From the NCBI GenBank assembly GCA_004283055.1, contig SHLP01000014.1:1-47091 (forward strand): a DNA stretch of 47,091 bases, read 5' to 3'. The stretch is from Deltaproteobacteria bacterium (GTDB lineage: Bacteria > Myxococcota_A > Polyangia > Polyangiales > Houyiibacteriaceae). Position 1 is the stretch's first letter; the number at the start of each line of letters is the position of its first letter. Positions 4,458 through 24,741 of the stretch are shown here, piece by piece. The position numbers and the translations under genes are program-made. The notes under the pieces were generated by a model. It worked only from the letters and a program-made list of their open reading frames with translations. It was not told the origin of the DNA and ran no database searches.

Positions 4458-4540
4458 GGGGATATGGTATTCCCGACTGCCCGATCGAACCAAGCAACTT
4501 GGGTCGCGAAGGGCGTATACTCATCGAGCAAGAGGGGGAG

Positions 4541-8393: not shown

Positions 8394-9667
8394 GTGAACG
8401 GATCGCGGTCGTCGGGCTCGGGTACGTGGGGCTTCCCGTTGCCTTGGCATTCGCTCGGAAATTCGAAGACACCGTCGGGTTCGACGTATCCGAGGCACGG
8501 GTCAAAGCGCTGACCGATCATCACGACTGGACCGGCGAGGTGACCCCATCGGAGCTCGAGCAAAGCAGACTGCGGCTCACGAGCGATCCGGCGGACCTTC
8601 GCGGCTGTACGTTTTTCGTCGTCGCGGTGCCGACGCCCATCGACTCGGACCGCCGCCCCGACCTCGGCCCGCTTCACTCGGCGACGCGGATCGTAGGCAG
8701 CGCCCTCGCTCCGGGCGCCGTCGTGGTTTACGAATCGACGGTTTACCCGGGCGTGACCGAAGAGCAGTGCGGACCGCTCCTCGCCGAAAGCTCGGGTCTA
8801 CGCCAGTCGCGCGATTTCAAGCTTGGATACTCGCCCGAGCGAATCAACCCCGGCGACAAGCTCCATACGTTCGAAAAGATCATCAAAGTCGTTGCTGGCG
8901 AAGATCCCGAAAGCTTGGAGCGCGTAGCTCGCACCTATGAAGCAGTCGTAGAGGCCGGCGTCCATCGCGCCTCTTCAATCAAAGTTGCCGAGGCCGCAAA
9001 GGTCATCGAAAACACGCAGCGCGACGTCAACATTGCGCTGATGAACGAGCTGGCGCTCATTTTCGACCGCCTCGAGATCTCTACGCGGGACGTGCTCCAG
9101 GCGGCCGGGACGAAGTGGAACTTTCTCGGCTTCACGCCGGGGCTCGTCGGCGGGCACTGCATCGGGGTCGACCCGTACTACTTGACCGCGAAGGCCGAAG
9201 CGCTCGGCTATCACCCTGAAGTCATTCTCGCCGGCCGTCGCATCAATGACGACATGGGCAAGTTCGTGGCGCAGCGCACCGTCAAGCTGCTTCGCAAGCA
9301 AGATCGCGTCATCAAAGGCGCGCGCATCGGGGTGCTCGGGCTCACGTTCAAAGAAAACGTCCCCGATTTGAGGAACAGCCGGGTTCCGGACATCATCGAG
9401 GAGCTTCGCGAATTCGGCATCGAACCGGTCGTTCACGATCCCATGGCGTCGGCGGAAGAAGCGATTCGGGAGTACGGGATCGAGCTCAGGCCGTTCGACG
9501 CGATTGCCGATTTGGATGGGTTGATCCTCGCCGTGCCCCATCGGCCGTACCTGGACCAGGTCGACCGAATCATCGCGAGCGTTCGCCGGGGCGGCGTGGT
9601 CATCGACGTGAAGTCCGTGCTCAGCGCCGACACGCTCCAGGGTGACCAGGTCTACTGGAGCCTCTGA
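8390..9667 (+). CDS. UDP-N-acetylhexosamine 6-dehydrogenase (WbpO/TviB-like)
   Basis: The product is 425 residues, the normal length for the UDP-glucose/GDP-mannose dehydrogenase superfamily. The NAD-binding motif VVGLGYVGLPVALAF is at residues 7-21. The catalytic cysteine is Cys257 in GLVGGHCIGVDPYYL, and the C-terminal domain starts at GVLGLTFKENVPDLRNSR. The FEKIIKVVAGE and VYESTVYPGVTE segments resemble the UDP-GalNAc dehydrogenases WbpO/TviB, which produce UDP-HexNAc uronic acids for acidic capsule or O-antigen. It is the last gene of the operon and ends 4 bp before the convergent export gene, with no terminator between. Confidence 0.92.
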   Translation: MSERIAVVGLGYVGLPVALAFARKFEDTVGFDVSEARVKALTDHHDWTGEVTPSELEQSRLRLTSDPADLRGCTFFVVAVPTPIDSDRRPDLGPLHSATRIVGSALAPGAVVVYESTVYPGVTEEQCGPLLAESSGLRQSRDFKLGYSPERINPGDKLHTFEKIIKVVAGEDPESLERVARTYEAVVEAGVHRASSIKVAEAAKVIENTQRDVNIALMNELALIFDRLEISTRDVLQAAGTKWNFLGFTPGLVGGHCIGVDPYYLTAKAEALGYHPEVILAGRRINDDMGKFVAQRTVKLLRKQDRVIKGARIGVLGLTFKENVPDLRNSRVPDIIEELREFGIEPVVHDPMASAEEAIREYGIELRPFDAIADLDGLILAVPHRPYLDQVDRIIASVRRGGVVIDVKSVLSADTLQGDQVYWSL

Positions 9668-9671
9668 GCGG

Positions 9672-10280
9672 CTAGAACATGCGCTCGGGGACGAAGATGA
9701 TGTCCCCGGCTGCAACTTCGATGTCGGCCGCCTGGCCCTTGGTCACACGGTCCACGGGGACGCGATAGCGAATGATCTCCTCGTCGATTCGCCGCGTGAC
9801 CACGGTGGCATCGCGGTCGGCAAGCGAGGAGAACCCGCCAGCCATGCTGATCGCCTGCACCACCGTCATGCCGGGTGCGAGCGCAAACGTTCCTGGATTT
9901 GCCACGGCTCCGACCACGCTCACGCGCTTCGATGCATACTCCTCGACGTAAACGGAGACGTGCGGCGCGCGCAGCAGGTCTCGGTCGACGAGCTCGGTCT
10001 GAATCTTCTGGGCGACTGCGCTTGGCTCCAAACCGCTCACCTGAACGGCGCCCAGAAGTGGAAAGTTGATGGTGCCATCGGGGGCGATTTGATGGCTGCC
10101 CGTCATCGCTTCCTCTCCGTAGACGCGGACCGAAAAGACGTCGCCAGGACCGAGTGTCGTGTCGTTGGTTGCCGGCGGCGGCACCTCGGTCACCTGGATG
10201 CCACGCTTGCTACAGGCAGACGCGCCAAAGGCGAGGGCGCTCAGCGCGGCGATCAGTAGAAGACGCGGATACCAAGCCAT
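9672..10280 (-). CDS. Short OPX (Wza-like) polysaccharide export lipoprotein
   Basis: The product is 202 residues. A signal peptide ends in ALAFGASAC, a plausible lipobox, so it should be a periplasmic lipoprotein. Residues about 42-115 form the polysaccharide export (PES) domain (LGPGDVFSVRVYGEE, then APDGTINFPLLGAVQVSGL), and about 120-175 form one SLBB domain (VSVVGAVANPGTFAL..MTVVQAISMAGG). The protein ends there at VPERMF. It lacks the extra SLBB domain and the C-terminal amphipathic helix with which E. coli Wza crosses the outer membrane. The gene overlaps the upstream beta-barrel gene by 28 bp. Short OPX proteins next to a barrel are the hallmark of composite OPX/beta-barrel translocons. 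Confidence 0.92.
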   Translation of the reverse strand: MAWYPRLLLIAALSALAFGASACSKRGIQVTEVPPPATNDTTLGPGDVFSVRVYGEEAMTGSHQIAPDGTINFPLLGAVQVSGLEPSAVAQKIQTELVDRDLLRAPHVSVYVEEYASKRVSVVGAVANPGTFALAPGMTVVQAISMAGGFSSLADRDATVVTRRIDEEIIRYRVPVDRVTKGQAADIEVAAGDIIFVPERMF

Positions 10281-11587
10281 GCTTCAAACCTCTGATAATC
10301 AGCGACCGGATCGAGCAGCACGTCTGAGCTCAGACCAACATAACGGAAGTCCGTGAAGTCCGCGAGGTATCCAAGGTCGGCAAACAGAGCCAGCCAGGGC
10401 TTGAATCGATACTCGCCGAAGATGCCGGCGTACACCCGCGTGCCCTCGCGGATCGGTTGGTTACCAATGAGGGTTCCGTCTGGGCTCAGCGCAAGGCCCG
10501 TCTTGTAGAAGGAGGCCCAGGCCTTGATCCCGAGTTGGAGAGCGCCCATCAGCGTGAACGTGGTGTCGGCGTGGATCCGGTTGAACAGCACGAAGTTGCC
10601 GATGAAAGACGGGCGAATGTCGCGATCGTAGCGGAGCGAAACCCCGATCGTGGGCCGAGCCTGCCAGCGCAACTCGACGCGAGCGATGACATCGTCAAAG
10701 CTCTGTCCAATCTCGTAGAAGCCGGCGGCATACCCCAGCATGGCGGTGAGCGAGAAGCGTTCGGTGATCGCGCCGTTGTAGCCAACCATGTTCGAGACGC
10801 GGTTGTTCTTCGAGAGCAGCGTCGGCGACGTGTCGATCTCGGTCGGGTTCACGAACTGTTGGTTTACGTACTCGACGTTGTACACCAGCGCGGAGGATGG
10901 AAAGAACAGCCAGCTGAAGGTTGCGGGCACCCGATGGCTGATGTTGTTTCCGTACCCGTAGATGTTCGCGTCGAAGAATTCGAGCCTGTTAGTGTAGCCA
11001 AGAGTGCCTTCGAGCAGCTGGCTCTTGCTTCGGCCAACTAGGTTGAGGGACGCCGTGTTCATGTTCCGGCCGTAGCTGATGGTCGTTCCCTGCTGCGTAT
11101 TCGGGTCCGAGAACGGCCGCGCCGTGCGCCGGAATTCGTCGTTGATGACCAGACTGAAGACCTTGGATGGATTGTAGGCGAAGTTGATGTGCGCATCGGC
11201 TCCGACGACGCCGCCGATGCGGTCCGTGAAGTAATGCAAGTAGTCTGCCCCAATCCCACCTCGGAACTGGATCTTCTGTGGCTCTGCAGCGTTGGCGTCG
11301 CCCTCGCTCTGGCGAATGGTTCCCTCCGTGGCGAGGTCGAGGTAGCCCTGGACGAGCAGGATGAACGACGAAAGCTCATCGGAGCTCTGAAGGAATACAT
11401 TCGAGTCGTAGCCGCCGCCTACAGAGAGACCGGGGTGCAGGACGAGCCTTCCCGCTTTGAAGCCCGGACCTTCGCGCGCGGCGCGGTCAGGGTCGAAGAC
11501 CTGCGCATCGGCGGTCGCGCTCAGCAAGGCGGTGCCCAGGACGGCCGCGAAAGCCAGAGCCAGCCCTAACGTCGAGCAACAGCGCAT
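10253..11587 (-). CDS. Outer-membrane beta-barrel, probable polysaccharide translocon subunit
   Basis: The product is 444 residues with a cleavable signal peptide (ALLSATADA-Q). The mature protein is built of alternating amphipathic strands rich in Tyr, Phe and Gly (VGGGYDSNVF, FRGGIGADYLHYF, EGTLGYTNRLEFF, YAGIFGEYRFKPW). It ends in GIRVFY, an aromatic C terminus typical of outer-membrane barrels. The size fits a barrel of roughly 16-18 strands. An AAGGGA ribosome-binding site precedes the ATG. It is co-transcribed and overlapping with the short OPX gene, which is the arrangement of Wzp/Wza pairs in Myxococcus. I infer that it supplies the outer-membrane pore that the short OPX protein lacks. 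Confidence 0.85.
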   Translation of the reverse strand: MRCCSTLGLALAFAAVLGTALLSATADAQVFDPDRAAREGPGFKAGRLVLHPGLSVGGGYDSNVFLQSSDELSSFILLVQGYLDLATEGTIRQSEGDANAAEPQKIQFRGGIGADYLHYFTDRIGGVVGADAHINFAYNPSKVFSLVINDEFRRTARPFSDPNTQQGTTISYGRNMNTASLNLVGRSKSQLLEGTLGYTNRLEFFDANIYGYGNNISHRVPATFSWLFFPSSALVYNVEYVNQQFVNPTEIDTSPTLLSKNNRVSNMVGYNGAITERFSLTAMLGYAAGFYEIGQSFDDVIARVELRWQARPTIGVSLRYDRDIRPSFIGNFVLFNRIHADTTFTLMGALQLGIKAWASFYKTGLALSPDGTLIGNQPIREGTRVYAGIFGEYRFKPWLALFADLGYLADFTDFRYVGLSSDVLLDPVADYQRFEAWLGIRVFY

Positions 11588-11629: not shown

Positions 11630-12229
11630 TTAGCTCACTCCGCTGACTGGTGGCGGGATGAATGGAACCGGCCAGTCGAACACCGGGGTCGTCACGGCAG
11701 GATTCTCATCTGGGACGAAAAGATCAACGTCTTCTCGCACTCGTGTCTCGCCTGTGTCGAAGAGGTCTTGCCCCACGCACTGGTTGGCGGCCTGGGCCAG
11801 AGCCTTCGACTTCTGGGAGAGGACGGCGATTACCGTGGACTCGTGGTTGCTGCTGCCGGAGTCCCTGGCGGCAATCGCTTTGCCGAGCGCCTTCTGCCGA
11901 CGCTTCATGCTCTGAAGGCTGGCGTTGCACTGGTCGAGCTTGTCTTTGAGGCAGGTCGCGCGAATGATGTCCTTCTCCCGCTTGGCGCTTTTGAGCGCCT
12001 CCGATTGCGCCTTGCAGCTGGCCGATGCGCTCTTCACCGCAGACTTCGCTGCCTTCGTCTGCGCTGCCGGAGAGAGCGCTCGGGCCTCGTCGCGGGCGCC
12101 CAGCGGCTCGACCTGGATGACGTCGACCGTCGAGTCGCCGGCCTCCTGAGCGACGGCATACCCCAGGCTCCCTCCGGCCAAGATCATGGCCGCGAGCGCC
12201 TGCCCAGCGATTCCCATCCGTCTAAACAT
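11630..12229 (-). CDS. Unknown secreted helical protein, first gene of the OPX/barrel operon
   Basis: The product is 199 residues from ATG 12229, which has a good ribosome-binding site (AGGGGAT) 7 bp upstream; a TTG three bases earlier is less likely. The signal peptide ends near GYAVAQ. Residues about 50-150 are Ala/Lys/Ser-rich and predicted helical, with four cysteines (SASCKAQ, RATCLKDK, LDQCNAS, ANQCVGQ) that could bridge helices. The C terminus is acidic, then proline-rich (FDWPVPFIPPPVSGVS). I recognise no family. It lies 42 bp upstream of the barrel gene on the same strand, so it is probably co-expressed with the export pore. A periplasmic accessory of the translocon is the simplest inference. 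Confidence 0.8.
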   Translation of the reverse strand: MFRRMGIAGQALAAMILAGGSLGYAVAQEAGDSTVDVIQVEPLGARDEARALSPAAQTKAAKSAVKSASASCKAQSEALKSAKREKDIIRATCLKDKLDQCNASLQSMKRRQKALGKAIAARDSGSSNHESTVIAVLSQKSKALAQAANQCVGQDLFDTGETRVREDVDLFVPDENPAVTTPVFDWPVPFIPPPVSGVS

Positions 12230-12253
12230 CAACGATCCCCTAAACTTGCGGCG

Positions 12254-12281
12254 ATTATACGCCGCACCATCTACGTGTCAA
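12254..12281 (-). promoter_or_regulatory. Perfect-consensus sigma-70 promoter of the OPX/barrel operon
   Basis: On the minus strand TTGACA (12281-12276) is followed after exactly 16 bp by TATAAT (12259-12254). Both hexamers match the sigma-70 consensus at all six positions. The -10 box lies about 22 bp upstream of the ATG at 12229, and the region is AT-rich compared with its surroundings. This should be a strong housekeeping promoter driving the secreted protein, the beta-barrel and the OPX lipoprotein. Confidence 0.85.
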
Positions 12282-12327: not shown

Positions 12328-13791
12328 TTAATTTTGAGGCTGGAAAACAAAGGGATAACGAAAGGTCACGCTGCCACCGTCGGGCCCCGGGTTGAATCGA
12401 AAGCGTCTGATGGTCCGCGTCACGCAGTCAGCGACGGCGGGGCTGCCGGTCGTATTCTCGCTGGCTTTGGCATTCGTCACATTGCCACGCTCCTGGATGG
12501 TGAACGTCACGGTGACCTTGCCAGATAGACTGGGGTTCTTGCGAAGCTCGGACTCGTAGCAGCGCTGGATCGACTTGAGGCGTTGCTTGATCTGACGTTG
12601 CACCAGCGCCTGATCGAACGCACCGCTGCCGCCTATGTCCCCGCCCGTGTTGAGCCCGACGTTTCCGCGCACCTGACGCTCCTTGACCGCCTGGCCTTCC
12701 TGTGCGGCCTTTCCTGCGCCCTTGCCCTTTTTGAGCGAGCCGAGGCCGGCTTTCTGCCCGCTGCCCCCGCCGCTTCTGGTTCGCAGCGTGCCCGCTTCGC
12801 TCTTCGTTGCGACGCCGACGCCGGACGCCTGTGCGAGGACATCCGCGGCGTTGCCGGTGACGGCCCCACCTGCGAGCACGTCACCGAGCGCGCCGCCCGA
12901 GCCGCCCAGCGCCCCCAAGAGCATCGCTTCAGCTTGCGCGGCGGCCTCTTGTGCGATGCGAGCGCGACCCTCGACGGTGGCTCCAGCCGCGTCTCCACCC
13001 GTCGGCGCCCTGCCCTCGGTCCTCGTCGGCTTTCGGTCAGGCGCCTTGCTCGCGGCTTTCGACTCTTCTTCCTCCTCGCCCTCGCCTTCTTCGATCGGCT
13101 CCTCTTGGACCGTGGGCGGTTCCATCGGGGCTTCGAAGATCAAACGCGCCAAGTTCTCGGGTACCTCCTCGACACCCTTCTCGACCTTCCAGTCGGCGTT
13201 CTCCATGTAGATGATGAACCCGAAGAACAGCATGTAGGAGAAGATCACCCAGGTGGTGAACGTCCAGTCGATGTTCTTGACGAAGCCGCGCTGGACCGCG
13301 GCCGGGAGCTGTGGCTTCGGGGTGATCGGTGGCGCAGCGACGAACTCGAAAAAGACCGTGAACTCGCCAATCTTGATATTGCCTCGCGACGTGTCGGCGA
13401 GCTTGATCTGGTAGTGGGTACCGGCGTTGCGCGCGGCTCCCGTGTCCCTGAGGTGCTCGAGCTTCTGCACGCCCCCTGGCAGAGCGATCTTTCCGGTCAT
13501 CTCGCCGGTGAAGTTCAGGATGTAGTCATCTCCGACCAGCTGGAAGAGCTCGAACCGCGACTCTAGCTTTGCGGGCAAGGTTCCGGCCCGAATGATGAGG
13601 TGGTTCTTAGCCGCGGTGCCGATCGAGACGGTCTCGCGCCTTCGAACGATCCGTTCTTCGACGATCTTCTTGTCCCGAAACAGACCGACGCGCAGGACTT
13701 TCGACCCCGCCTGCTTCCCGGGAACGGCCTGCATCGCCTGCGTCATGGCGCCAGGACGGGTTCCCCGCCTCGGACTTTGTGGTTGGGCCAT
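12328..13791 (-). CDS. FHA-like/TM/AgmX-PglI C-terminal (TonB-like) protein, GltG-like
   Basis: The product is 487 residues. After a short linker, residues about 32-150 resemble a divergent FHA-type beta domain (VLRVGLFRDKKIVEE..ETVSIGTAAKNHLII). One transmembrane segment lies near residues 180-197 (VIFSYMLFFGFIIYM). An acidic stretch follows (EEPIEEGEGEEEEE), then an Ala/Gly-rich linker. The last 100 residues form the AgmX/PglI C-terminal domain (VQRQIKQRLKSIQRCYESEL, then GKVTVTFTIQERGNV and a second Cys), a TonB-like fold. The order of cytoplasmic FHA-like domain, membrane span and periplasmic TonB-like domain is that of the gliding protein GltG/PglI. It is the last gene of the operon, overlapping the previous gene by one base. 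Confidence 0.85.
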   Translation of the reverse strand: MAQPQSPRRGTRPGAMTQAMQAVPGKQAGSKVLRVGLFRDKKIVEERIVRRRETVSIGTAAKNHLIIRAGTLPAKLESRFELFQLVGDDYILNFTGEMTGKIALPGGVQKLEHLRDTGAARNAGTHYQIKLADTSRGNIKIGEFTVFFEFVAAPPITPKPQLPAAVQRGFVKNIDWTFTTWVIFSYMLFFGFIIYMENADWKVEKGVEEVPENLARLIFEAPMEPPTVQEEPIEEGEGEEEEESKAASKAPDRKPTRTEGRAPTGGDAAGATVEGRARIAQEAAAQAEAMLLGALGGSGGALGDVLAGGAVTGNAADVLAQASGVGVATKSEAGTLRTRSGGGSGQKAGLGSLKKGKGAGKAAQEGQAVKERQVRGNVGLNTGGDIGGSGAFDQALVQRQIKQRLKSIQRCYESELRKNPSLSGKVTVTFTIQERGNVTNAKASENTTGSPAVADCVTRTIRRFRFNPGPDGGSVTFRYPFVFQPQN

Positions 13792-14045
13792 CAGAACGGC
13801 TCCTTTTGGACACTGCGAACGACTTTGCGAAGGAAGCTCGTGCGCAGCTCGAGCACTTCATAGCCCAGGTTGGATCGATTCAGGATGTAGAACGCGTTGG
13901 GTTTCTGGACGCGGCCCTCGATGACGATTTCCTCGAGCTGGATGACCCGTGGCTGCCGCTTCTTTGCGCCTTGAGCCAGCGCCACGCTTGCCGCCAACGC
14001 AACGAGCATCAGCGCGAGCAAGATAACCGAAGTCGCACGTTTCAT
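13791..14045 (-). CDS. Small secreted protein between the TPR lipoprotein and AgmX-like genes
   Basis: The product is 84 residues. A signal peptide (residues about 1-25, ending ASVALAQ) leads into a mature part of about 60 residues (RVIQLEEIVIEGRVQKPNAF, then ILNRSNLGYEVLELR). The I-x-L-E-E-I-V-I-E-G-R-V-Q-K-P pattern recalls the short peptide that precedes AgmX-type domains in other Myxococcota proteins, but I cannot name a family. Its start overlaps the upstream stop (ATGA) and its stop overlaps the AgmX-like start, so it is made in step with both. The coupling strongly supports a real gene despite its size. Confidence 0.75.
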   Translation of the reverse strand: MKRATSVILLALMLVALAASVALAQGAKKRQPRVIQLEEIVIEGRVQKPNAFYILNRSNLGYEVLELRTSFLRKVVRSVQKEPF

Positions 14046-15358
14046 GAGGCGCCTCCCTGTTCGCGTTCCATCTGCCGCCGCGCGCGCTTGATCATTCGAT
14101 CCAGATCGCGGAGATACTCCTCCGATTGGTCGTCTTTGGCTAGGCGCGGACCCATTTCGCTCCGATATCGATTGAGCTCGTCCACGGCCTTCTCGTATGC
14201 GGTGAGCGCGTCGAGGCCGGGAAAATCCCCAGCCGCAGATAGAAACAGGAGCCCCAGCCCGTAGTGCGCTTCAGGGAGCTTCGACTGGAGCTCGAGGGCC
14301 CGCCGGTAGGCCCGCTGAGATTCGGTCCACTGCTTGTTGGCCCGGTAGGCGTCGCCCAAGTTGACGTGGACGGCGGGAAGCGTGGGGACCAGGCGCTCCG
14401 CGGCCTGGAAGTGAGACAGCGCGCTCGGATAGTTGCCGCCTGCGAGGAGCTGGACGCCGAGTGCCATCTGAGCTTCGGCATAGCTCGGACGCAGCCGAAC
14501 GGCGCGTTCGTAGGCGGCCATCGCTTCGCGCAGACGCCCGGGCTCCGCCTTGAGCCTCTCACCGTCGAGGAAGTGAAGCTCGGCAACGTTAGGATCGACC
14601 TGCAGGGCCTGATCGAGGATCGAGTCGGCGAGCTCGTCACGGCCCTGCGCCCGGCTTGCTTTGAGCAGAGCGATCAGCGCGGGCACGAATCGCTCGTCGC
14701 ACTTGAGCGCGCGTCGCGCGGCCATCCAGGCTTCGTCGTAGCGTCTCGCCTCGACCAGGATCTCTGCGTACAGCGCCTGCAGCTCGAGGTTCGAGCGATA
14801 TCGATTCGCCAAGGGCTCCACGCTCGCGACCGCAGCTTGCACTTGCCCACGGCGGAGCTGAATCGTGGTCATGCCGCGGACAGCCGGCTCGTAGTCCGGC
14901 ACGATCGTCAACGCGCGTTGGTACTCGCTGAGGGCATCCTGTTCGTTGCCGGCGCGGTCGGCGAGCACGCCGAGATTGTACATCGCCGGGTACGCGCGCG
15001 GGTCGCGATTGAGCGCGCGTTGGAACTCCGCCCCCGCCTTTGCTGCATCGCCGGAAGCTGCCGCGCTCACGCCCGCGCTAAAGGACCTGGTCGCCTTAGA
15101 AGACATCGTCGGGCGAGCCGGCCGGCGGCACTGCTCGGCTTGCGTTGCGCCCCATGGGCTTGGTTCCGGTGTCTGTGCCCCCCCCGCAGTGCCGGACGGG
15201 CCGGGCTCAGCTTCCACGACCTCGCCGACGCCGGCGGGCGCTTCGCCGCCCGCGCTTGGCTCTGCGTCGACGGGCGCCGAAGTCGAGGAGCCTTTGCAGC
15301 CGTACATCGCCAACAGCGTCGCGGCGGTCAAGATCGTGCCCTGTACCCCCATATGCAT
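14042..15358 (-). CDS. TPR-repeat lipoprotein, GltE/AglT-like
   Basis: The product is 438 residues. The N terminus is hydrophobic and ends in LLAMYGC, a somewhat atypical lipobox, followed by a Ser/Glu/Pro-rich linker. From about residue 95 to the end there are roughly eight tetratricopeptide repeats (for example AYPAMYNLGVLADRAGNEQDALSEY is one, AEAQMALGVQLLAGGNYPSALSHF another, PAVHVNLGDAYRANKQWTESQRAY a third). TPR arrays bind partner proteins. By position and size it resembles GltE/AglT, the TPR lipoprotein of Myxococcus gliding complexes. The start overlaps the stop of the large TPR gene (ATGA). Confidence 0.85.
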   Translation of the reverse strand: MHMGVQGTILTAATLLAMYGCKGSSTSAPVDAEPSAGGEAPAGVGEVVEAEPGPSGTAGGAQTPEPSPWGATQAEQCRRPARPTMSSKATRSFSAGVSAAASGDAAKAGAEFQRALNRDPRAYPAMYNLGVLADRAGNEQDALSEYQRALTIVPDYEPAVRGMTTIQLRRGQVQAAVASVEPLANRYRSNLELQALYAEILVEARRYDEAWMAARRALKCDERFVPALIALLKASRAQGRDELADSILDQALQVDPNVAELHFLDGERLKAEPGRLREAMAAYERAVRLRPSYAEAQMALGVQLLAGGNYPSALSHFQAAERLVPTLPAVHVNLGDAYRANKQWTESQRAYRRALELQSKLPEAHYGLGLLFLSAAGDFPGLDALTAYEKAVDELNRYRSEMGPRLAKDDQSEEYLRDLDRMIKRARRQMEREQGGAS

Positions 15359-18300
15359 CAGTTGCTCTCCTTGCTGATAGCAGGCGGGGCGATTCCGGGT
15401 CGAATCTCGAGCGGTTTGCCTCTGGGCGAACGGGCGAACTCGCCTGGGCTATACCCCTGGAAGGTGGCGTCGGCCGCCTGCGCCTCGGCGATGCACTCGG
15501 CGATTCGCTCGTCGCCGTAGGCCTGGAGCCGGTCGATGGCGATCCGCGTGTACTGGTCATCGAAGCTACCGGCCCGGCCCGCGCGCGCGGCCAAGGCGTA
15601 GCGCGCGACCGCAAAGCACTCCACGGGACGAACCTGCGTATCGAGCACCTGGCGAACCTTGTCCTCGAAGTCGAGCCGGTAGTCCTCGCGTTCGTACTCG
15701 TCCGCCTTCCGGAGCACGCGCTGGAGGTCGCCCGGAATGACGACGGGTGTGTTGAGAATCGCGCGGGCGAGGATCTCGTAGGCGCGCCCTTGGCGTACGT
15801 AGGACGCGATCGTCCAGCGCGGGCGGCGGTAGGCGAAGACGGGTTCGTAGCCGTTGGCGACCCCTTGGGCCTGGTTCGCGCCGTTCCCCATCTGCTTGGT
15901 AATGGTATTGATGTAGCCCTCGACCGACTTCGGCCTGCCGGGCTTGATCTGGAACTTCTCGAAGCTCGCGAGCTTGCCATCGACCAGGATGAAGCGCGCT
16001 TCGGCGGCGTACCCGGCTGCGATCGAGCCCGCGGGCTGACCGCTGCGCTCAAATGCCGTCGTCACGTCCTCGAGCGCGCCGCGGTAGTCGCCCATTCGGC
16101 CGCGCGCCTTCCAAGACTGCGCGATGCGCCAATGCGCTTGAACGAGCAGGTCCCCGGCCTCTCCGTCGCGGCCGTAGGCCTTGATGAACTCTCGCATGCC
16201 GCTGATCGCCTGCGGGTAGCGCCGCTGCCGATACGCCATCTCGGCAATGCGATAAAGGGCGTTTCGCTTCGTGTCCTCGTCGTCGACGCTGGTGTACACG
16301 CGTCGGTAGTACTTCGTCGCCTCGGAATACCGCTGAAGGCGCTCGAGCAGAATGGCTGAGTTGACGAGACCGTCATCGCGTTTGCTCTGAACCTCCTCGT
16401 CGGTCGATTTGGCGAAGCGCTGCGAGTCCGCGAGCACGCGATAGTTGTCGACGGCCCGGTCGAAGTCGAAGTTACGGCTCGCCGTGTACGCAAGCTTGAA
16501 GTGCGCGTTGGCCAAAATCGCATCGAGGCTTCGCTGCTCTTCGGCGTCGGCGGCTTCTCGAGGCCCCACGTCGTCGATGATGCGCTGATAGAGCTGAGCG
16601 GCGGAGTCGAAACGGTTGGTCGCTTCTAGCGCAAGAGCAGCATACTCGAGCGCGAGCGGCGCTTGCTTGTCGTTCGGGTTGCTGTTGACCGCGGCGAGCA
16701 GCATCGTGGCGGATTGCTCGTAGAGAGCCACGCTTTCGCTGCCGGTCGTTTGGCCGGCTTGCTTGTAGACATCGAGGGCATCTTGATATACGAGCGCGTT
16801 GAGGTCCGCGCCCGCGCGGCAGATCGGCTTGTCGCGGTTGGCGGGCTTGCTGCAGTCGATCTTGGCGGCGCCCGCGGCAAACGTGCAGCCGCGCTCCTGA
16901 ATGTCGGTCGCAAGGCGGCGAATCTCGTCGCTGTCTTCGGTCGCCATCGCCATCGCACGTAGGTTTTCCCAAGCGATTTGGCCGGTGGCGTCCGCCTCCG
17001 CACCGGAGCAACGCTCTTCGTAGATCCGCGTGAAGCGGCTCTCGGCCTGCGGCCAGTAGCCGTACCAGTAGAGAAGCAGCGCGTTGTTGTAGTCGTAGGC
17101 CGCGCGCACGCCTTCGGTATCGCGTCTGGGGCTCACCCTGCTGAGGTAGATTTCCCGCGCTCGTGCCAGTCGCTGAACCGTTTCGGGCATGGCGGAAGGT
17201 TGAGCTCGGGGTGGCTCACCGACGGGCGGCGGCGCTTCGCTTCGGACCACCAAGCGCCCCTCTTCGACATCGCGGTCGGCGATTCGCTTCAACGACTCGA
17301 CCACGCGCCTCGCCGATTCGGCGAGATAGCTGTCGTCGACGTTGGAATCGCGAACCTCGGCGTACTCCGTCGCAGCCTGCTCGTAGCTCTTGGACCAGTA
17401 GAGGGCGTCGGCGAGGTTGTAGTGAAGCTCGTAGCCCTGGGGGTTGTTCGGGTAGCGTTCGAGATAGCTACGATAGGCGCTGGCGGCCAAGCCGTACTCC
17501 GACTGCGAATCGGTGCAGAGCTTCACGTTGCGTTCTTGGACACAGCGCTGACGCAGCCGCTGAGCGGCCTGGTGATGATGAATCGCCGTGACGATGAGCG
17601 CGTTTTCGGCGAGCTGCTCGGCGGCCCGCTGCTCCGAAGGACGGTCCATGTTGGCATTCCACCAAGGGCTGCCCTGGACGAACTGGGTGAGCTCCGAACG
17701 GGCGACAATCGCGTCTTCGAACTGGTTGTGCATCTGGTGCGCGTTCGCGATTTGGTTGAGGATCTCCGGCGTGCGATGATGGTCGGGCCATTTCGAAATC
17801 GCCACTCGCCATGCCGCGATCGCTTCGGGGTACTTTGCTTCATCGAAGTACACTTGCCCGAGTTGGAAGTAGACTTCAGGAGTCCAGGGCCTCTGCTGCG
17901 GGAGGAGCGAGGGGTCCTGGATGCGCGCGAGCCCCGTCGGCCTGCCCTCGACCGGATCGGCAATCTGATTCTCGTTCCAGTCGTCATAGGCGAACGCGAT
18001 GCCGAGGTACTCGATAGCCTCGGGCCGAAGCTCGGACCCGGCCTTGCCCGTCTCTTTTCGTGTTTCGTCCGACCATTGGACGAGCTTGCCGAAGTTCCGG
18101 ATCGCCTCTGGGTAACGGCTTGCGCGGTAGTAGGCCCAAGCGACTTTGTACAGGGCGAGGTTGTAGTTGCGGTCTTCGCTGTTCTCCAGAATGCGCCCAT
18201 ACGCCGCGATAGAGAGGTCCAGTGCATGGTCGCCCCCGAAATCGTCGAAGTGGTACTCGCCGATTCGGAACCAGGTTTCGCTTACGAAGCGGGCCTGCTC

Positions 18301-19209
18301 CGAGATGGGCTCGCAGCGCGCATACGCGTTGACGAAGACGCCGCGCTGCGTTGCGCCGAGAGGACGACCATCGAGCGTCAACGCAGGATACTTCGCTTGG
18401 GCGGCAAGCGACGCATCGACCGGTGGCGGACGCCAATCGGGGTTGTAGTCGTAGGTGTTGGCGCAGACGAGGGCGAGCCATGCGGCAAGCGCCTCCTCGG
18501 GGCGTCCCATTTCGTTCAGGGTGTACCCGATCAAGTAGTAAACCCCGTCGGAGCGCTCATAGTCGGGGAAACGACGGGCCAACGACTTGTACAGAAGGAC
18601 CGTCGGCGTGAAGTCCGGCGAGCTCGGGAGCCCGTCTTCCGCGGTCAAATCGCCGGCCTCGCGAGCTGCCTGTGCCTCGTCGTACAGATCTTGGAACTCG
18701 ACCGCGCTGCGCTCGAAGTAGAGCTCACCCAAGCGGAACATCGCGTCTGGCGTATATCGGGGATGGGTCGGATAGCGCCGAAGGAACTCTTCGAAGACCC
18801 GGATCGAATCCGCACGAGCCTGTTTGAACTCGAGCTCCTCCGCCTCCAGCTGCTCGCCGTACCAGCGATCGCGCTCCCGTCGCTGCTGGAGGTACTCGCG
18901 GCGGACGAGCGAGGTCACCGTGGACCGAAAAGCTTGGCCCGTCTTGTCGAATCGCTCGACCTCTTCTTCGAGCTGCTTCAAGGCTTCGAGCTGCTGCTCG
19001 GTCGGAGGGGGGCGCTCGTCGACGATGCGTTTGCCGGTGTCCTGCAGGAAGGGTGGCAGGCTGACGTCCGTCGCGCCTCCCCAGGGCGTAGCCTCGTCGG
19101 CTTCCGTCTCGGCGCTTGATTGCTGAGCGAGAGCAGGACTGAGACTCCAACAGGCGGTGGCAACCGCGGCCAGCAAGACGAGCGATGCGCGCCAATGGGA
19201 CTTGCTCAT
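15358..19209 (-). CDS. Large periplasmic TPR protein, GltD/AgmU-like
   Basis: The product is 1283 residues from ATG 19209; the reading frame extends upstream to 19338, but that part overlaps the neighbouring gene. The chosen start gives a standard signal peptide (SLVLLAAVATACWSLSPALA-Q) and an ATGA overlap. The mature protein is a long chain of TPR-type helical pairs (PDAMFRLGELYFERSA, WTPEVYFQLGQVYFDEAKYPEAI, KLAYTASRNFDFDRAVDNY) with a Cys-containing stretch in the middle (ERGCTFAAGAAKIDC). Its size and place fit GltD/AgmU (and the sporulation paralogue NfsD), a periplasmic scaffold. The assignment is by architecture; sequence identity was not measured. Confidence 0.85.
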   Translation of the reverse strand: MSKSHWRASLVLLAAVATACWSLSPALAQQSSAETEADEATPWGGATDVSLPPFLQDTGKRIVDERPPPTEQQLEALKQLEEEVERFDKTGQAFRSTVTSLVRREYLQQRRERDRWYGEQLEAEELEFKQARADSIRVFEEFLRRYPTHPRYTPDAMFRLGELYFERSAVEFQDLYDEAQAAREAGDLTAEDGLPSSPDFTPTVLLYKSLARRFPDYERSDGVYYLIGYTLNEMGRPEEALAAWLALVCANTYDYNPDWRPPPVDASLAAQAKYPALTLDGRPLGATQRGVFVNAYARCEPISEQARFVSETWFRIGEYHFDDFGGDHALDLSIAAYGRILENSEDRNYNLALYKVAWAYYRASRYPEAIRNFGKLVQWSDETRKETGKAGSELRPEAIEYLGIAFAYDDWNENQIADPVEGRPTGLARIQDPSLLPQQRPWTPEVYFQLGQVYFDEAKYPEAIAAWRVAISKWPDHHRTPEILNQIANAHQMHNQFEDAIVARSELTQFVQGSPWWNANMDRPSEQRAAEQLAENALIVTAIHHHQAAQRLRQRCVQERNVKLCTDSQSEYGLAASAYRSYLERYPNNPQGYELHYNLADALYWSKSYEQAATEYAEVRDSNVDDSYLAESARRVVESLKRIADRDVEEGRLVVRSEAPPPVGEPPRAQPSAMPETVQRLARAREIYLSRVSPRRDTEGVRAAYDYNNALLLYWYGYWPQAESRFTRIYEERCSGAEADATGQIAWENLRAMAMATEDSDEIRRLATDIQERGCTFAAGAAKIDCSKPANRDKPICRAGADLNALVYQDALDVYKQAGQTTGSESVALYEQSATMLLAAVNSNPNDKQAPLALEYAALALEATNRFDSAAQLYQRIIDDVGPREAADAEEQRSLDAILANAHFKLAYTASRNFDFDRAVDNYRVLADSQRFAKSTDEEVQSKRDDGLVNSAILLERLQRYSEATKYYRRVYTSVDDEDTKRNALYRIAEMAYRQRRYPQAISGMREFIKAYGRDGEAGDLLVQAHWRIAQSWKARGRMGDYRGALEDVTTAFERSGQPAGSIAAGYAAEARFILVDGKLASFEKFQIKPGRPKSVEGYINTITKQMGNGANQAQGVANGYEPVFAYRRPRWTIASYVRQGRAYEILARAILNTPVVIPGDLQRVLRKADEYEREDYRLDFEDKVRQVLDTQVRPVECFAVARYALAARAGRAGSFDDQYTRIAIDRLQAYGDERIAECIAEAQAADATFQGYSPGEFARSPRGKPLEIRPGIAPPAISKESN

Positions 19210-21599
19210 GGCCCGCCCCCGACGCCCTGATTCTCGTCCATCACGTCCCGGAACTCGTCGTCGAGCGCTTGGAGCTCGCGCGCGCGCTCGCGGGTCAGCG
19301 TGTCGATCCGGACCCTGTGGTCTTCGCGCCGTGCCCAAGCGACGTCGATCTTGCCCACCTCCGCTCGGAGAACCAGGTCGTAGAATCGATCATGGACGCG
19401 ATTGAAATTGAGATAGGTGATCGCGCCGACGACGTCTTCAGCCTCGCCTTCTAGCGAGCCGAGCGCGTTGCGGTAGCGCTTCAAGTTCGCGGTTTCGTCG
19501 TCGACGGTCGCAAGCATTTGAGTGACGCGTCGTTTCACCACGGCGGTCAGCTCGGCGTCACGCTGATCGAGTCGGCGCTCGAGAGCGGCCACACGCGAGA
19601 ATGCCTCGTCGTACTGGGGGCCCCCAGAACCGGTCAGCTTTCGCTCACGCCCCACGAGGTCGATGAAGGTTCTCCGCTCGACGTCGTCTGCCTGGTACCG
19701 TCTGTCGCCAACCCCCACGTGAAGACGGCCGACTTCGAGGCGTCGACGAATCCAAGTGAGTTGCTCTTCGTACTCCTCGATTTCGCCTTCGTGTTCCGCG
19801 AGCTGGGTGGCCAACGCCTGCGGGTCGGCCTTGCGCGGGTCGATGGCCGGCAGGCCGGCGCGCGATGCCACGATACGCGCTTCGAGGCCTAGAATTTCGA
19901 TTCGCAGCGCCTGCAGGTCGCGTTCGGCGGCCCTAAACTCGCCGAGTCGTTCCATGTCGCGATCGACGAAGTCCTCGGTGTCGACAGGCATGTCCATCAC
20001 CTCGGCCTGGACTTCGCGACGACGCGTGCGCACTGGTGCTGCTTGACCCGCGGGAGCGCCCCGTGCTTGGCTCTCGGCCTCGATGAGAGCGCCGAGGGCG
20101 CGCGCTGCCCGGTTTCGAAGGCCGGTCGTCCTTTCGCGCTGACGCCGAAGATCGGCAAATACGCTGACGCGATTTGGCGCGCTCAGAGCTGCGGTGATCC
20201 TTTCGGCGAGCTGGTTGGTCTCTTCGACGAGCCGATTGGCCTCGCTCAGGTCGGAGAGCACCTCGAGCGCACGCTCGTAGTCGCCTTCGAGCTCGATCCA
20301 GCGCCTTGCCGACTCCGGCAGGAAGTCGTCAATGTCGAAATCGTCTAGGTTTTCGCGGACAACGGCACGGAAATGCGCGTGAAGATCGGGATGGTCATTG
20401 CGCTTGGCCTCGAGCTCGTCGCGGATGGGACCAAAAGTAGCCCGTACCTCATCGAAGACCACCTCCGCTTCGTCGTAGCGTCCGTTCCGGGCGAGAAGGT
20501 CACCGCGCAGGACTTTGCCATCGGCATTGAGCGGGCTGTTGGGCGCAGCGACAGAGAGCACCTCGAGGGTCCGCTCCGCTTGGATGGCGTCCCCCATGCG
20601 TATGTACGTCCACGCAAGCTCGAACAGCGCCTGGTCGAACCGAGCCGAGGTCTGCTCGACCGCGCGGTACGCTTCGACGGCCTGCTCCAACTGCTCCGTT
20701 TCGTAGTATAGACGTCCAAGGGCGAGATAGGTCAGCTCGAGGACTTCCGCTTCCTGCTCGTTGGCGGGCTCGTGCCCCATCACGCCGCGGAACGCCGCGA
20801 TGGCGTCGAGGTACTCGCCGCGAAACGTGTGAATCGTGCCGACGAAATATTTGGCGCGCAGGGAGAACTCGGTGCCACTCGGGATGCCGAGGAAGCCTTT
20901 GCGGGCCTGCTCGAGGCGGCCTTGATCGAGCCCGCGAAACGCCGAGCTCGAGGGGGCGTCGAGCACGTCATCGATCGGCAAGGCGCGGTTGTACAGATAC
21001 TTGGCGCGGAAGTACGCCGTCGAGATGGAAAGGGTCGACGATGGGATGGCGTCGAGACGCGAAAAGTAGCTGTCGACGTCCCGGAAATCGTGCGTGTGGA
21101 TCGCGATTTGAATGAGGCGGCTGAGCGATGGCTGCAGGTACGGCGAAAACGCGGGCTCGCCGCCGCGGTCGATAACCTGGGCGTACCGCCGCCGAGCGCC
21201 CAAGTAGTCGTCGGCGAGGAACAGAGACTCGCCCAGCAGAAAGAGCGCCTCCGGATAGGCGCGATGGGTTGGGTAGTGTTCGACGATGTCCGTCAGAAGA
21301 ATGGCCGCTCGGAGGTAGTCCTCGAGCCGCAGGTAGAGCTCCCCGTCGGTGAGGCGTTCCTCGACGAAGGTTTCGCTCTTCAGGTCGAGCGGGCGGACCG
21401 GATCGGCGAGCAGGCGCTGGGCATCTGCTTCGAGCTCCGACAGCGCGCGGTTCGCCGTGGCGAGATCCTGGGCCGCCGCTTCGGGAGCATCAAGCGCAAG
21501 GAGGCCTAGGGCCAGGAACAACCCCAGCCGAATCCTTTGCGCTCGCCCCCTGCCTCGTGTCGGTGAGGGCGGCGAACCCGTCGCGCCGCCAGGTCGCAT
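19206..21599 (-). CDS. Periplasmic TPR and coiled-coil protein
   Basis: The product is 797 residues. A long basic N-region precedes a hydrophobic stretch (LGLFLALGLLALDAPEAAAQ), consistent with a signal peptide. Residues about 75-400 carry TPR-like repeats (RAYPEALFLLGESLFLADDY, then YLALGRLYYETEQLEQAVEAY). Residues about 430-790 are predicted coiled coil, rich in Arg/Glu/Leu heptads. The start shares a base with the upstream stop (TAATG) and no closer ATG or GTG exists. In a Glt/Nfs comparison it would occupy the role of a second TPR scaffold such as GltC, but the coiled-coil half is not something I can assign. Confidence 0.82.
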   Translation of the reverse strand: MRPGGATGSPPSPTRGRGRAQRIRLGLFLALGLLALDAPEAAAQDLATANRALSELEADAQRLLADPVRPLDLKSETFVEERLTDGELYLRLEDYLRAAILLTDIVEHYPTHRAYPEALFLLGESLFLADDYLGARRRYAQVIDRGGEPAFSPYLQPSLSRLIQIAIHTHDFRDVDSYFSRLDAIPSSTLSISTAYFRAKYLYNRALPIDDVLDAPSSSAFRGLDQGRLEQARKGFLGIPSGTEFSLRAKYFVGTIHTFRGEYLDAIAAFRGVMGHEPANEQEAEVLELTYLALGRLYYETEQLEQAVEAYRAVEQTSARFDQALFELAWTYIRMGDAIQAERTLEVLSVAAPNSPLNADGKVLRGDLLARNGRYDEAEVVFDEVRATFGPIRDELEAKRNDHPDLHAHFRAVVRENLDDFDIDDFLPESARRWIELEGDYERALEVLSDLSEANRLVEETNQLAERITAALSAPNRVSVFADLRRQRERTTGLRNRAARALGALIEAESQARGAPAGQAAPVRTRRREVQAEVMDMPVDTEDFVDRDMERLGEFRAAERDLQALRIEILGLEARIVASRAGLPAIDPRKADPQALATQLAEHEGEIEEYEEQLTWIRRRLEVGRLHVGVGDRRYQADDVERRTFIDLVGRERKLTGSGGPQYDEAFSRVAALERRLDQRDAELTAVVKRRVTQMLATVDDETANLKRYRNALGSLEGEAEDVVGAITYLNFNRVHDRFYDLVLRAEVGKIDVAWARREDHRVRIDTLTRERARELQALDDEFRDVMDENQGVGGGP

Positions 21600-22309
21600 T
21601 AGCGATCGCCCTCACCCATTTCATCGGGTCGAACGGGACGCTCGACGCGTTCGATGTACCGGACCGCGGGCCGCTCTTCGAGCGGGGTCGCCGGACCACC
21701 CTTTTCGTAGCCCACCACGTGGACGGTCGAGACGCGGCCTTCCGGCACGGAGAAGGTGTAGGTCGACCTCACCTTGAAGCGATAGCCTTTGAGGTACGCG
21801 AAGACACCGTAGCCGTGACCCCGATACTCGAGGCTGACGGTCAGCGTGTGCTCGCCCGGAACGATGCTCCCGTTGTAGACCTCGAACTCCTTTTGATCAC
21901 CGAGCGTGCCCTCTTCGTCTGCTTTGGTGAAGATCGGGGCGCCGTCGAGGGCGTACACGACCCTGACGAGCTTGTAGGACTGCGACATCCGATTTTCGTG
22001 CACGATGGCAGCCTGGCCTCCGCCGACGACGCCTTCGAGAACGGTTTCAGCGAGCAGTGAGAGCCGGGCCTTCGAGCGAAAGATCTGCTCTTTGAGCTCG
22101 TTGATCCGCTGTTCGAGGTCCCGCAGGCGCACCGCGTACGTGCCGGCGTCCAGGGGCTTGCTGGGCGCGCTCGGCACCGCCGTTTCGGTTGGCGGCGAAG
22201 CGTCGATTCCGGTTTCCGGAGGCGAGCTGCCGCCGGCCTGCGCCTCTGCAACGGCGCCCCCCAACCCAATACACGCTGCCACAACGCAGAGCGCAACGAT
22301 CCTGCGCAT
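21599..22309 (-). CDS. Secreted coiled-coil/beta protein heading the TPR operon
   Basis: The product is 236 residues from ATG 22309, which follows an AGGGG ribosome-binding site; an earlier frame start at 22333 is unlikely. The signal peptide ends near GAVAEAQA. A heptad-like helix (LRDLEQRINELKEQIFRSKA) follows. The rest is beta-rich (VRVVYALDGAPIF, then GEHTLTVSLEYRGHGYG, and VRSTYTFSVPEGRVSTV) and ends in a charged tail. Similar Myxococcota proteins are, as I recall, sometimes misnamed dihydrolipoamide acetyltransferase. No catalytic or lipoyl motif is visible here, so that name should not be used. It is the first gene of the six-gene coupled operon. Confidence 0.8.
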   Translation of the reverse strand: MRRIVALCVVAACIGLGGAVAEAQAGGSSPPETGIDASPPTETAVPSAPSKPLDAGTYAVRLRDLEQRINELKEQIFRSKARLSLLAETVLEGVVGGGQAAIVHENRMSQSYKLVRVVYALDGAPIFTKADEEGTLGDQKEFEVYNGSIVPGEHTLTVSLEYRGHGYGVFAYLKGYRFKVRSTYTFSVPEGRVSTVHVVGYEKGGPATPLEERPAVRYIERVERPVRPDEMGEGDR

Positions 22310-22370: not shown

Positions 22371-22400
22371 CTTATACCGCAGCGCGAGCGGCTGGGTCAA
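22371..22400 (-). promoter_or_regulatory. Probable sigma-70 promoter of the six-gene TPR/AgmX operon
   Basis: On the minus strand TTGACC (22400-22395) and TATAAG (22376-22371) are separated by 18 bp. Each matches the consensus at five of six positions. The -10 box is about 61 bp upstream of the ATG at 22309, leaving a leader of roughly 55 bases that contains a small hairpin. A further dyad, GCCGG/CCGGC at 22409-22427, lies just upstream but has no T-tract, so it is not a convincing terminator for the STAS gene. Confidence 0.65.
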
Positions 22401-22493: not shown

Positions 22494-23321
22494 TCAGGGC
22501 AGGAACCGAGCCAGCAGCGCTCGCCACCTCTCTTTCCGAGGTGGGGTGGCGCGATCGGGCGAATTCAGGGCGGCCTCGAGAGCAACGGCCAGGTCGGGCG
22601 CAATCCGCAGCGCGTCCAGAGGGATGCGCGCATCGGTCGCGGCAGCCCTCCAGCGCTGGTCGACTCCGACAAAAATACACTGGCCGCCAAGCATTTTGGC
22701 GATCTCATCGGCGGAAAACACGGCGATGGCTCGCTCCCGGTTCGGCTCGCTCAGCTGGGTCAGGTCGACGATCGCCAGCTCGACATCTGCGTCGAGCATG
22801 GCCCGGCCAAGCGCGTCGACGCAGTCGCTCAGGACGGCCGGCTCATGCGTTCCGGAGATGACCAGTGCGAAGATCGAGGCGTCTATTCGCAGGGGCTGGA
22901 GGCAGCTCGCCGCACGCTCCATCGCAGCCTGGGAGACGCGCTCTTCGCGCCCGAGCACGAAGCCTTCGACGGCCGCGGCGACGGCGCGCTGCGCAAATGG
23001 TTCCACGTCGACCTCGCACGACGGGTCGACCGACTGCAATGCGAGGCGCGTGACTCGAACCGCTGTGGTCGGTGTGAGGTCGAGGAGGGCAAGGCGCCGA
23101 CCGACGAGGGTGAGGACGGTGAAGCACTCACGGAATTCAAACGACTCGAAATCGCCACCCGCCCGCTTCTCGATGGGCAACTCGCTCAGGAGTGGCAGCA
23201 CGGGTGTCACCTCGGCGAAAACGTCGTCGAGCGAAACGCCTCCGGTGGCTGGCGTGGCCGCCTCGAGTGCCGCCCGGAAGCGCGCCGTGACGGACGTCGT
23301 CTCACTCTTTGGGTCGGCCAT
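22494..23321 (-). CDS. STAS-domain-like protein (RsbR-type regulator), tentative
   Basis: The product is 275 residues. The C-terminal part (about residues 155-260) has the STAS-fold pattern: a strand ASIFALVISG, helices, a strand VELAIVDLTQLS, a helix ADEIAKMLGG and a final strand QCIFVGVDQ. In RsbR-type antagonists the segment after the DLTG-like strand carries a phosphorylatable Ser or Thr; here it reads TQLSEPNRE. The N-terminal 140 residues are helical and charged, as in the sensory half of RsbR proteins. No signal peptide is present, so it is cytoplasmic. It is divergent from the sigma-54 activator gene by 28 bp, suggesting a functional link. Family membership is a judgement from pattern only. 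Confidence 0.6.
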   Translation of the reverse strand: MADPKSETTSVTARFRAALEAATPATGGVSLDDVFAEVTPVLPLLSELPIEKRAGGDFESFEFRECFTVLTLVGRRLALLDLTPTTAVRVTRLALQSVDPSCEVDVEPFAQRAVAAAVEGFVLGREERVSQAAMERAASCLQPLRIDASIFALVISGTHEPAVLSDCVDALGRAMLDADVELAIVDLTQLSEPNRERAIAVFSADEIAKMLGGQCIFVGVDQRWRAAATDARIPLDALRIAPDLAVALEAALNSPDRATPPRKERWRALLARFLP

Positions 23322-23349
23322 CGTTCAGCATGGTATAAGCCGAAGCTCC

Positions 23350-24741
23350 ATGGCCGCCACCATCCTCGTCGTCGACGATGAAAAGAACATCCGACGGACG
23401 CTCCGGATGGTGCTCGAAGGTTCCGGATTCAAAACCCTCGAGGCTTCGTCGGCCGAGGAGTGCTTGGAAACCGTGCAAACGGGTGACGTCGATTTGGTCA
23501 TCCTCGACGTCCGGCTCCCCAAGATGAGCGGCATCGAGGCGCTTCAAAAGATTCGCACCGAACCGGAAACCCGAAAGCTCCCGGTGCTGATGGTGTCGGG
23601 CCACGCCTCGCTCGCCGAGGCGGTGCAGGCCGTCCAGCTAGGCGCGACGGACTTCTTCGAGAAGCCCCTCGATCGTGATCGCGTCTTGGTCACGGTGCGC
23701 AACGCACTCAAGACCTGGCAGCTGCAGCGCGAGGTCGAGCAGCTCAGGGCGGACGTCGAGCATCGCTACGAGATGATCGGCGAGAGCGATTCCATTCGGG
23801 CGCTGTTTGCCCAACTCGAGAAGGTGGCACCGACCAACGGTCGAGTCTTGATCTCCGGAGAAAGCGGTACGGGCAAGGAGTTGATCGCCCGCGCGATCCA
23901 TCGCTTGAGTCCACGGGCGGACAAGCCTTTCATCAAGGTGAACTGTGCGGCCATTCCAGCGGAGCTCATCGAAAGCGAGTTGTTCGGCTACGAGCGAGGA
24001 GCGTTCACCGGCGCACAGGGCCGCAAAAAGGGCATGTTCGAGCTCGCCAACGGGGGTACGCTTTTCCTCGACGAGATCGGCGATATGAGCGCAAGCGCGC
24101 AGGCCAAGGTCCTTCGGGCGCTTCAGAGCGGAGAGATCTCACGCGTCGGCGGTCAGAAATCAATCGCAGTCGATGTCCGTGTCTTGGCCGCGACCAACAA
24201 GGACCTCGAGCTCGAGGTGCGGGACGGCCGGTTTCGGGAAGACCTCTTCTTTCGCCTCAACGTCGTTCCGATCGTCAGTCCAACGCTTCGGGACCGTCGC
24301 ACGGATATTCCTCTTTTGGCCAAAGGCTTTCTTCGTGATTTCTCGATTGAAAATGGGCTTCGCGAGAAACCGATCGACGAGACCGTGCTCCAGGCGCTGA
24401 GCGAGCGCTCCTGGCCCGGCAACGTTCGCGAGCTTCGCAATGTCGTCGAGCGGATGGCTATTCTGAGCGGCGATCGGATTACGCTCGACGATCTGCCCGA
24501 AGAAGGGGTCCTGAGCGACGCTCGACGAGCCTCGTCCCCACCGTCCGACATGCCTTCCACGCTCGACGAGAACGGGGAGCGCCTGACTTTGAGGGAGTAT
24601 CGGAGCCGAGCGGAGAAGGACTACATCCTGCAAACGCTCGATCAGGTGGGCTGGAACATTTCGCGCGCCGCGACAATTTTGGGTGTAGAGCGCACCAACC
24701 TTCACAAGAAAATGCGCAGCTATGGTATCCGTCGAGAGTAG
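23350..24741 (+). CDS. NtrC-family sigma-54-dependent response regulator
   Basis: The product is 463 residues. Residues 1-120 form a receiver with the acidic pair DD (9-10), the phospho-acceptor Asp53 (LVILDVRLPKMSG) and a later Lys (EKPLDRDR). The AAA+ domain has Walker A GESGTGKE, the sigma-54 contact loop GAFTGA in YERGAFTGAQGRKKG, and LFLDEIGDM. The C terminus carries a Fis-type helix-turn-helix (WNISRAATILGVERTNLHKK). The open frame runs upstream to 22462, but ATG 23350 starts the receiver exactly. It should activate sigma-54 promoters when phosphorylated. No histidine kinase is adjacent. A small membrane protein gene follows after 2 bp. Confidence 0.93.
   Translation: MAATILVVDDEKNIRRTLRMVLEGSGFKTLEASSAEECLETVQTGDVDLVILDVRLPKMSGIEALQKIRTEPETRKLPVLMVSGHASLAEAVQAVQLGATDFFEKPLDRDRVLVTVRNALKTWQLQREVEQLRADVEHRYEMIGESDSIRALFAQLEKVAPTNGRVLISGESGTGKELIARAIHRLSPRADKPFIKVNCAAIPAELIESELFGYERGAFTGAQGRKKGMFELANGGTLFLDEIGDMSASAQAKVLRALQSGEISRVGGQKSIAVDVRVLAATNKDLELEVRDGRFREDLFFRLNVVPIVSPTLRDRRTDIPLLAKGFLRDFSIENGLREKPIDETVLQALSERSWPGNVRELRNVVERMAILSGDRITLDDLPEEGVLSDARRASSPPSDMPSTLDENGERLTLREYRSRAEKDYILQTLDQVGWNISRAATILGVERTNLHKKMRSYGIRRE

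Follow-up and report, generated by a model that had tools for sequence, protein, structure and literature searches.

What kind of machine is encoded by a run of six overlapping envelope-protein genes in a deltaproteobacterium of the order Polyangiales, and on what does it act? The genes lie in a 47,091-nucleotide stretch of contig SHLP01000014.1, here called the window, and a sequence-only reading had likened them to the Glt gliding and Nfs spore-coat complexes of Myxococcus.

The six minus-strand open reading frames span 22309 to 12328 and overlap at all five junctions, which read TAATG, ATGA, TGATG, ATGA and TGATG, giving overlaps of 1, 4, 1, 4 and 1 bases; coordinates and junction sequences thus bear out the close packing first described. 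The order is P1, a 236-amino-acid secreted protein with a signal peptide, a long helix and a beta-sandwich (21599 to 22309), followed by a GltC-like periplasmic TPR protein of 797 amino acids (19206 to 21599; NF033756, E 1.1e-22, under the cut-off), a GltD-like periplasmic TPR protein of 1,283 amino acids (15358 to 19209), a GltE-like TPR protein of 438 amino acids (14042 to 15358; NF033758, E 4.9e-28), a small secreted GltF/CglF-like protein of 84 amino acids (13791 to 14045; NF033764, E 6.5e-6, under the cut-off) and a GltG-like inner-membrane transducer of 487 amino acids (12328 to 13791; NF033760, E 1.1e-49), the last also placed by a GltG tree. In the NCBIfam search the third product is a TPR protein occupying the place of GltD, an assignment that draws on TPR families, operon position and a GltD tree. 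The GltE-like protein, whose MYGC motif is an imperfect lipobox, is a probable lipoprotein. GltC, GltE, CglF and GltG matches therefore fall in the expected order and go beyond generic TPR similarity, although none of the six products reaches the equivalog cut-off of an NCBIfam Glt model. The GltG-like protein has a cytoplasmic N-domain, one transmembrane segment and a TonB/AgmX-type periplasmic tail, and the proposed AgmX character of that tail was confirmed by a match above the cut-off to the AgmX/PglI model (NF033768, E 4.5e-29). Its N-terminus was not significantly similar to the Glt-type FHA domain (hhalign, E 0.15), and the FHA motifs GR and SxxH are not present in its sequence.

P1 is the marker of this branch. 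Pfam and NCBIfam searches gave no match to it, while a profile built on it had matches, mostly one per genome, in 204 of the 284 genomes sampled from the phylum. Its AlphaFold2 model (mean pLDDT 78.5) has a long helix and a beta-sandwich, for which a fold search returned nothing more specific than a widespread beta-sandwich layout (transthyretin-like and other folds, best Z about 9). Identity with GltB/NfsB was rejected, since the profile does not match the Corallococcus proteins upstream of NfsC; the one match in that set was to a remotely related protein of L061, another Glt-type cluster.

Many other genera of the order share the P1/GltC, GltC/GltD, GltD/GltE and GltE/CglF overlaps, which are therefore not due to chance. 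The overlap of CglF with GltG is not so widely shared. In congener L053 the two genes stand 67 bases apart, and in several other genera the space is filled by an open reading frame of about 180 to 280 codons, in some cases a decayed AglR-like gene (L067, E 2.4e-9; L059, 4.9e-8; L071, 8.2e-6 with an AglR profile; Pfam support weak). The suggestion that strict coupling fixes the stoichiometry of the products was thus overstated. A promoter-like site, TTGACC-N18-TATAAG, lies 5' of the unit on the minus strand (22371 to 22400); it is a consensus match only, with the same hexamers and spacing in two congeners. Beyond it are a gene for a 275-amino-acid protein without a family match (22494 to 23321), found near the operon in ten relatives from the order, and beside that a divergent sigma-54 (NtrC-type) response regulator (23248 to 24741).

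On the other side, about 95 bp 3' of GltG and on the same strand, begins a unit of three genes. The first, dn1 (11630 to 12232), encodes a 200-amino-acid secreted protein that had no match in family searches and is known by synteny, being linked across classes. The second (10253 to 11587) encodes a WzpB-like outer-membrane beta-barrel of 444 amino acids and 18 predicted strands (AlphaFold2 pLDDT 83), whose model returned outer-membrane barrels in Foldseek. The third (9672 to 10280) encodes a short class-3 OPX protein of 202 amino acids, a WzaB/EpsY-like lipoprotein with PF02563 and SLBB domains. Since its Poly_export and SLBB domains extend to residue 197 of 202, there is no room for a pore helix segment, and no Wza_C segment is present. 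The protein fell below the cut-offs of the EpsY and EpsE models, and is one of two PF02563 proteins in the genome. A short OPX protein with an 18-strand barrel is a described translocon type (PMC9601211, PMC9603273), and by its domains and predicted folds the unit is a putative WzpB/WzaB-type polysaccharide translocon. The earlier remark that no barrel lies inside the operon is right for the six genes, but a barrel gene begins 741 bp past the GltG stop, at 11587.

Within the 95-bp gap 5' of dn1 is a promoter-like site matching the consensus at 12 of 12 positions (TTGACA-N16-TATAAT, minus strand, 12254 to 12281), kept with the same 16-nucleotide spacer in two congeners. Because each unit has its own conserved promoter-like site, they look like two neighboring transcription units rather than one nine-gene operon. 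Past the OPX gene, both strands from 3537 to 9667 carry genes for a nucleotidyltransferase, epimerases, a PseB/WbpM-like dehydratase and a TviB-like UDP-sugar dehydrogenase (8390 to 9667; TviB is the nearest model, under the cut-off). Such nucleotide-sugar genes would suit an acidic polymer. The dehydrogenase was set aside as a clue to cargo, its linkage being confined to the genus among the relatives examined.

The likeness to Glt and Nfs proved to be one of kinship rather than membership. Corallococcus interemptor has four Glt-type clusters: C422, taken as Glt because its GltG is above the NCBIfam cut-off; C186, taken as Nfs, in which barrel-like proteins are encoded ahead of the GltC-like gene; C144; and a cluster divided between contigs C78 and C22. 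In the GltD tree the window protein groups with the C78 copy and is split from the three other clusters at 100/100, and the GltG tree agrees (91/93), the rooting of the trees being uncertain. The C78/C22 cluster has an OPX gene and a barrel gene, and no gene of the OPX/barrel unit was found in the sequenced stretches examined around the other Corallococcus clusters. Glt or Nfs membership was rejected on these trees, by which the window operon is assigned to a third Glt-type branch, shared with the M. xanthus G4 cluster. A separate and much closer GltG is encoded on contig C164 of the window genome (E 8.5e-118), with GltE- and CglF-like neighbors. Beside that second cluster (L044) runs a very long minus-strand open frame, GltI/AgmK-like by position, and C164 also carries a second MglA-like gene (1074 to 1646). 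No GltA/GltB-type barrels and no GltH-K genes lie beside the window operon, whose neighbors are P1, dn1, the barrel, the OPX protein, the NtrC-type regulator and the nucleotide-sugar genes.

The sequence-only reading had seen no AglRQS motor nearby, and this holds for the window, but one of four MotA/ExbB loci in the genome (C160) is an AglRQS-type ExbB-ExbD-ExbD operon, here R1. With a partner-type motor in the genome and family matches beyond generic TPR proteins, the refuting condition set by the sequence-only reading did not hold. In congeners, and in two relatives from the order, the C160-type motor stands back to back with another motor of the kind, R2 (L299, L300, L301); of 19 genomes of the genus that were searched, 13 have R2. 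Contig C160 stops 5 bp before the R1 start codon, and R2 was therefore probably lost in an assembly gap in this genome. Dedicated motor genes are unlinked to the core operon in this genus. A concatenated motor tree places R2 and Corallococcus C313 among operon-linked motors (99.7/94), and C160 with Corallococcus C269; the operon-linked motors and R2 form no well-supported clade apart from R1 (84.8/59 at the node including R1). The C269 subunits, of 245, 162 and 192 amino acids, fit those of AglRQS (245, 162 and 194; PMC3169522), so that C160 and C269 are taken as AglRQS and R2 and C313 as M2, names given by size and elimination. C160 was accordingly rejected as the dedicated motor of the window operon, as it groups with the AglRQS-sized C269 and not with R2. 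Several operon-linked motors (L128, L129, L132, L133) have Asn for the usual transmembrane Asp in the first ExbD-like subunit; the second ExbD-like subunit retains Asp in those inspected.

The association with a translocon is widespread. Among 40 loci whose sequence runs on for 4.5 kb or more past GltG, 29 have an OPX gene, a barrel gene or both 3' of GltG; these loci share ancestry and so are not 40 independent trials. The association crosses class boundaries, extending to rumen MAGs labeled UBP6 or Spirochaetales. In other classes, relatives of AglR, AglQ and AglS lie inside the operon, between CglF and GltG. In 24 loci, 11 of which come from records without a Myxococcaceae label, mglBA directly precedes P1; the pair is absent from the window and from this position in many more loci, and the MglA of the window genome is on C162 (79% identity). 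Four loci (L172, L182, L191, L206) have another module in place of the translocon 3' of GltG: a coiled-coil protein of about 320 to 345 amino acids and one that binds cyclic nucleotides, with a large repeat protein after these two. The coiled-coil and cyclic-nucleotide-binding pair also follows GltG in L128. Six loci from rumen and other MAGs with UBP6 and Spirochaetales labels (L192, L196, L197, L198, L201, L211) carry a tandem pair of Glt-type clusters, of which the second includes motor, barrel and OPX genes. Adjacency to a predicted polysaccharide exporter in so much of the phylum suggests a role for this branch in handling the sugar polymer that is exported.

The gene order can be carried over to M. 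xanthus through published locus tags. All eight loci examined from the genus of Pyxidicoccus fallax/Myxococcus have the order OPX, barrel, dn1, GltG, CglF, GltE, GltD, GltC, P1, mglA, mglB, and six of the eight have a cyclic-nucleotide-binding gene between dn1 and GltG at the threshold used. With that gene the order comprises twelve genes, and the published anchors, WzaB (MXAN_1915), WzpB (MXAN_1916), the G4 gltD homologue (MXAN_1922; PMC3169522), MglA (MXAN_1925) and MglB (MXAN_1926), all match in position. By locus-tag arithmetic, as opposed to direct reading of the sequence, the cluster order is that of MXAN_1915 to MXAN_1926. G4, G5 and M2 were described as paralogues of unknown function, and motility was unimpaired by a polar MXAN_1922 mutation or an MXAN_3004 deletion (PMC3169522). 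The BPS papers call MXAN_1915 "orphan-like" or place it outside any polysaccharide gene cluster, this OPX gene being 1 Mb from the BPS biosynthesis genes. Cells without BPS show poor pili-driven spreading, and BPS is released into the medium, as the spore coat is not. We found no mention of a Glt-type machine beside WzaB/WzpB in PMC9601211 or PMC9603273, and none of Glt or Nfs in the OPX paper. The openly available full texts searched gave no mention of MXAN_1917, 1918, 1920, 1921 or 1923; within that literature the linkage of machine and translocon provisionally appears unremarked.

We propose, with about even confidence, that the window operon encodes the core of a G4-type, motor-coupled trans-envelope machine handling the polymer exported by the neighboring translocon. 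The case for that polymer as cargo is the homology of the core to Agl-Nfs together with the conserved linkage. From the observed gene content, branch and linkages we infer that the parts are physically coupled and powered by protons, what they carry and which way they act. The transducer GltG would be driven by a TolQ/TolR-like proton channel of three subunits, whose genes lie away from the operon in this genus, and would relay work through the periplasmic TPR scaffold of GltC and GltD, with CglF and P1, to GltE at the outer-membrane end. The machine would then act on polysaccharide leaving through the adjacent class-3 OPX protein and 18-strand barrel, catching, carrying or arranging it along the surface. 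Agl-Nfs offers the comparison with spore-coat polymer: by way of an AglR-NfsG contact, it carries already exported Exo polymer over the spore surface (PMC3858216). Several observations count against our proposal. The polar MXAN_1922 mutant showed no visible motility change, whereas BPS-minus cells spread poorly, and the machine may therefore be dispensable for export. A separate promoter-like site precedes the translocon unit, the core occurs in some lineages with another module and no OPX or barrel, and BPS, unlike the spore coat, is released into the medium.

In a second reading the core transports something else, a protein or a lipid, or serves to hold the envelope together, and the translocon is an uncoupled neighbor by shared ancestry. 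The two apparent transcription units and the replacement of the translocon in four loci fit it; against it, the translocon linkage was retained across classes while mglBA and motor genes moved away in some, and we give it a modest minority chance. It is improbable that the machine instead energizes export, with the TonB-like GltG transmitting proton-motive energy to the OPX/barrel gate and thereby pumping the polymer or opening the gate. In its favor are the TonB-type tail, the TolQR-type motor and the adjacent translocon, whose OPX protein lacks its own pore segment, but agl mutants still show Exo polymer at the surface (PMC3858216), the polar MXAN_1922 mutant moved normally to the eye, and the Eps and Exo translocons are described with no such partner in the operon. 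From the M. xanthus mutant data it is less likely than transport after export, although an internal promoter like that in the window could have spared WzaB/WzpB the polar effects. More doubtful still is that the operon is the gliding machine of this organism. Its core proteins are the same, and mglBA, the polarity switch of gliding, adjoins the orthologous cluster in Myxococcaceae and other lineages; but the closer GltG is in the C164 cluster, both trees set the window operon apart from Glt, GltA/GltB-type barrels and GltH-K are not adjacent, and the M. xanthus counterpart is dispensable, the MXAN_1922 mutant gliding (PMC3169522). Generic YbgF/BamD-type TPR proteins unrelated to Glt, a reading with strong TPR family matches behind it, were rejected as scarcely credible given the specific, ordered GltC, GltE, CglF and GltG matches and the conserved order with AglRQS-type motors.

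If the polymer-handling proposal holds, it offers a candidate role for G4 of M. xanthus, and perhaps one for the M2 motor, both unassigned in 2011, and would explain the distance of the BPS OPX gene from its biosynthesis genes, its conserved neighbors being a Glt-type machine and mglBA. Whether an envelope motor is linked to a secreted polymer becomes directly testable in a genetically tractable species. It also bears on the origin of gliding: mglBA, the M2 motor (MXAN_3003 to 3005), the G4 cluster and the orphan WzaB/WzpB may, as a tentative and rather unlikely idea, descend from one ancestral polarity-controlled, proton-driven, secreted-polysaccharide machine whose MglAB switch gliding later borrowed.

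Among known systems, the M. xanthus G4 cluster (PMC3169522) is alike in gene order from OPX to P1 in that genus and shares a GltD-tree clade with the window through Corallococcus and Pyxidicoccus, but the window has neither the cyclic-nucleotide-binding gene nor mglBA beside the operon. The G1/G2 gliding machinery (PMC3169522) has relatives of GltC, GltD, GltE, GltF/CglF and GltG in common with the window and belongs to another clade; the window adds P1, dn1, barrel and OPX and has no adjacent GltA/GltB or GltH-K. The Nfs spore-coat machinery (PMC3858216) is alike in its core proteins and presumably in acting on exported polysaccharide; it too belongs to another clade, and the presumed Corallococcus Nfs has barrel-like proteins upstream of NfsC where the window branch has P1. 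The gltC-D-E-G and aglRQS core complex of nongliding bacteria (PMC3169522) has the same seven proteins, found as one operon in other classes, whereas in the window the motor is unlinked and P1 and the translocon are added. The composite translocons WzaB/WzpB, EpsY/EpsX and ExoA/ExoB (PMC9601211, PMC9603273) likewise pair a short OPX protein with an 18-strand barrel encoded by adjoining genes.
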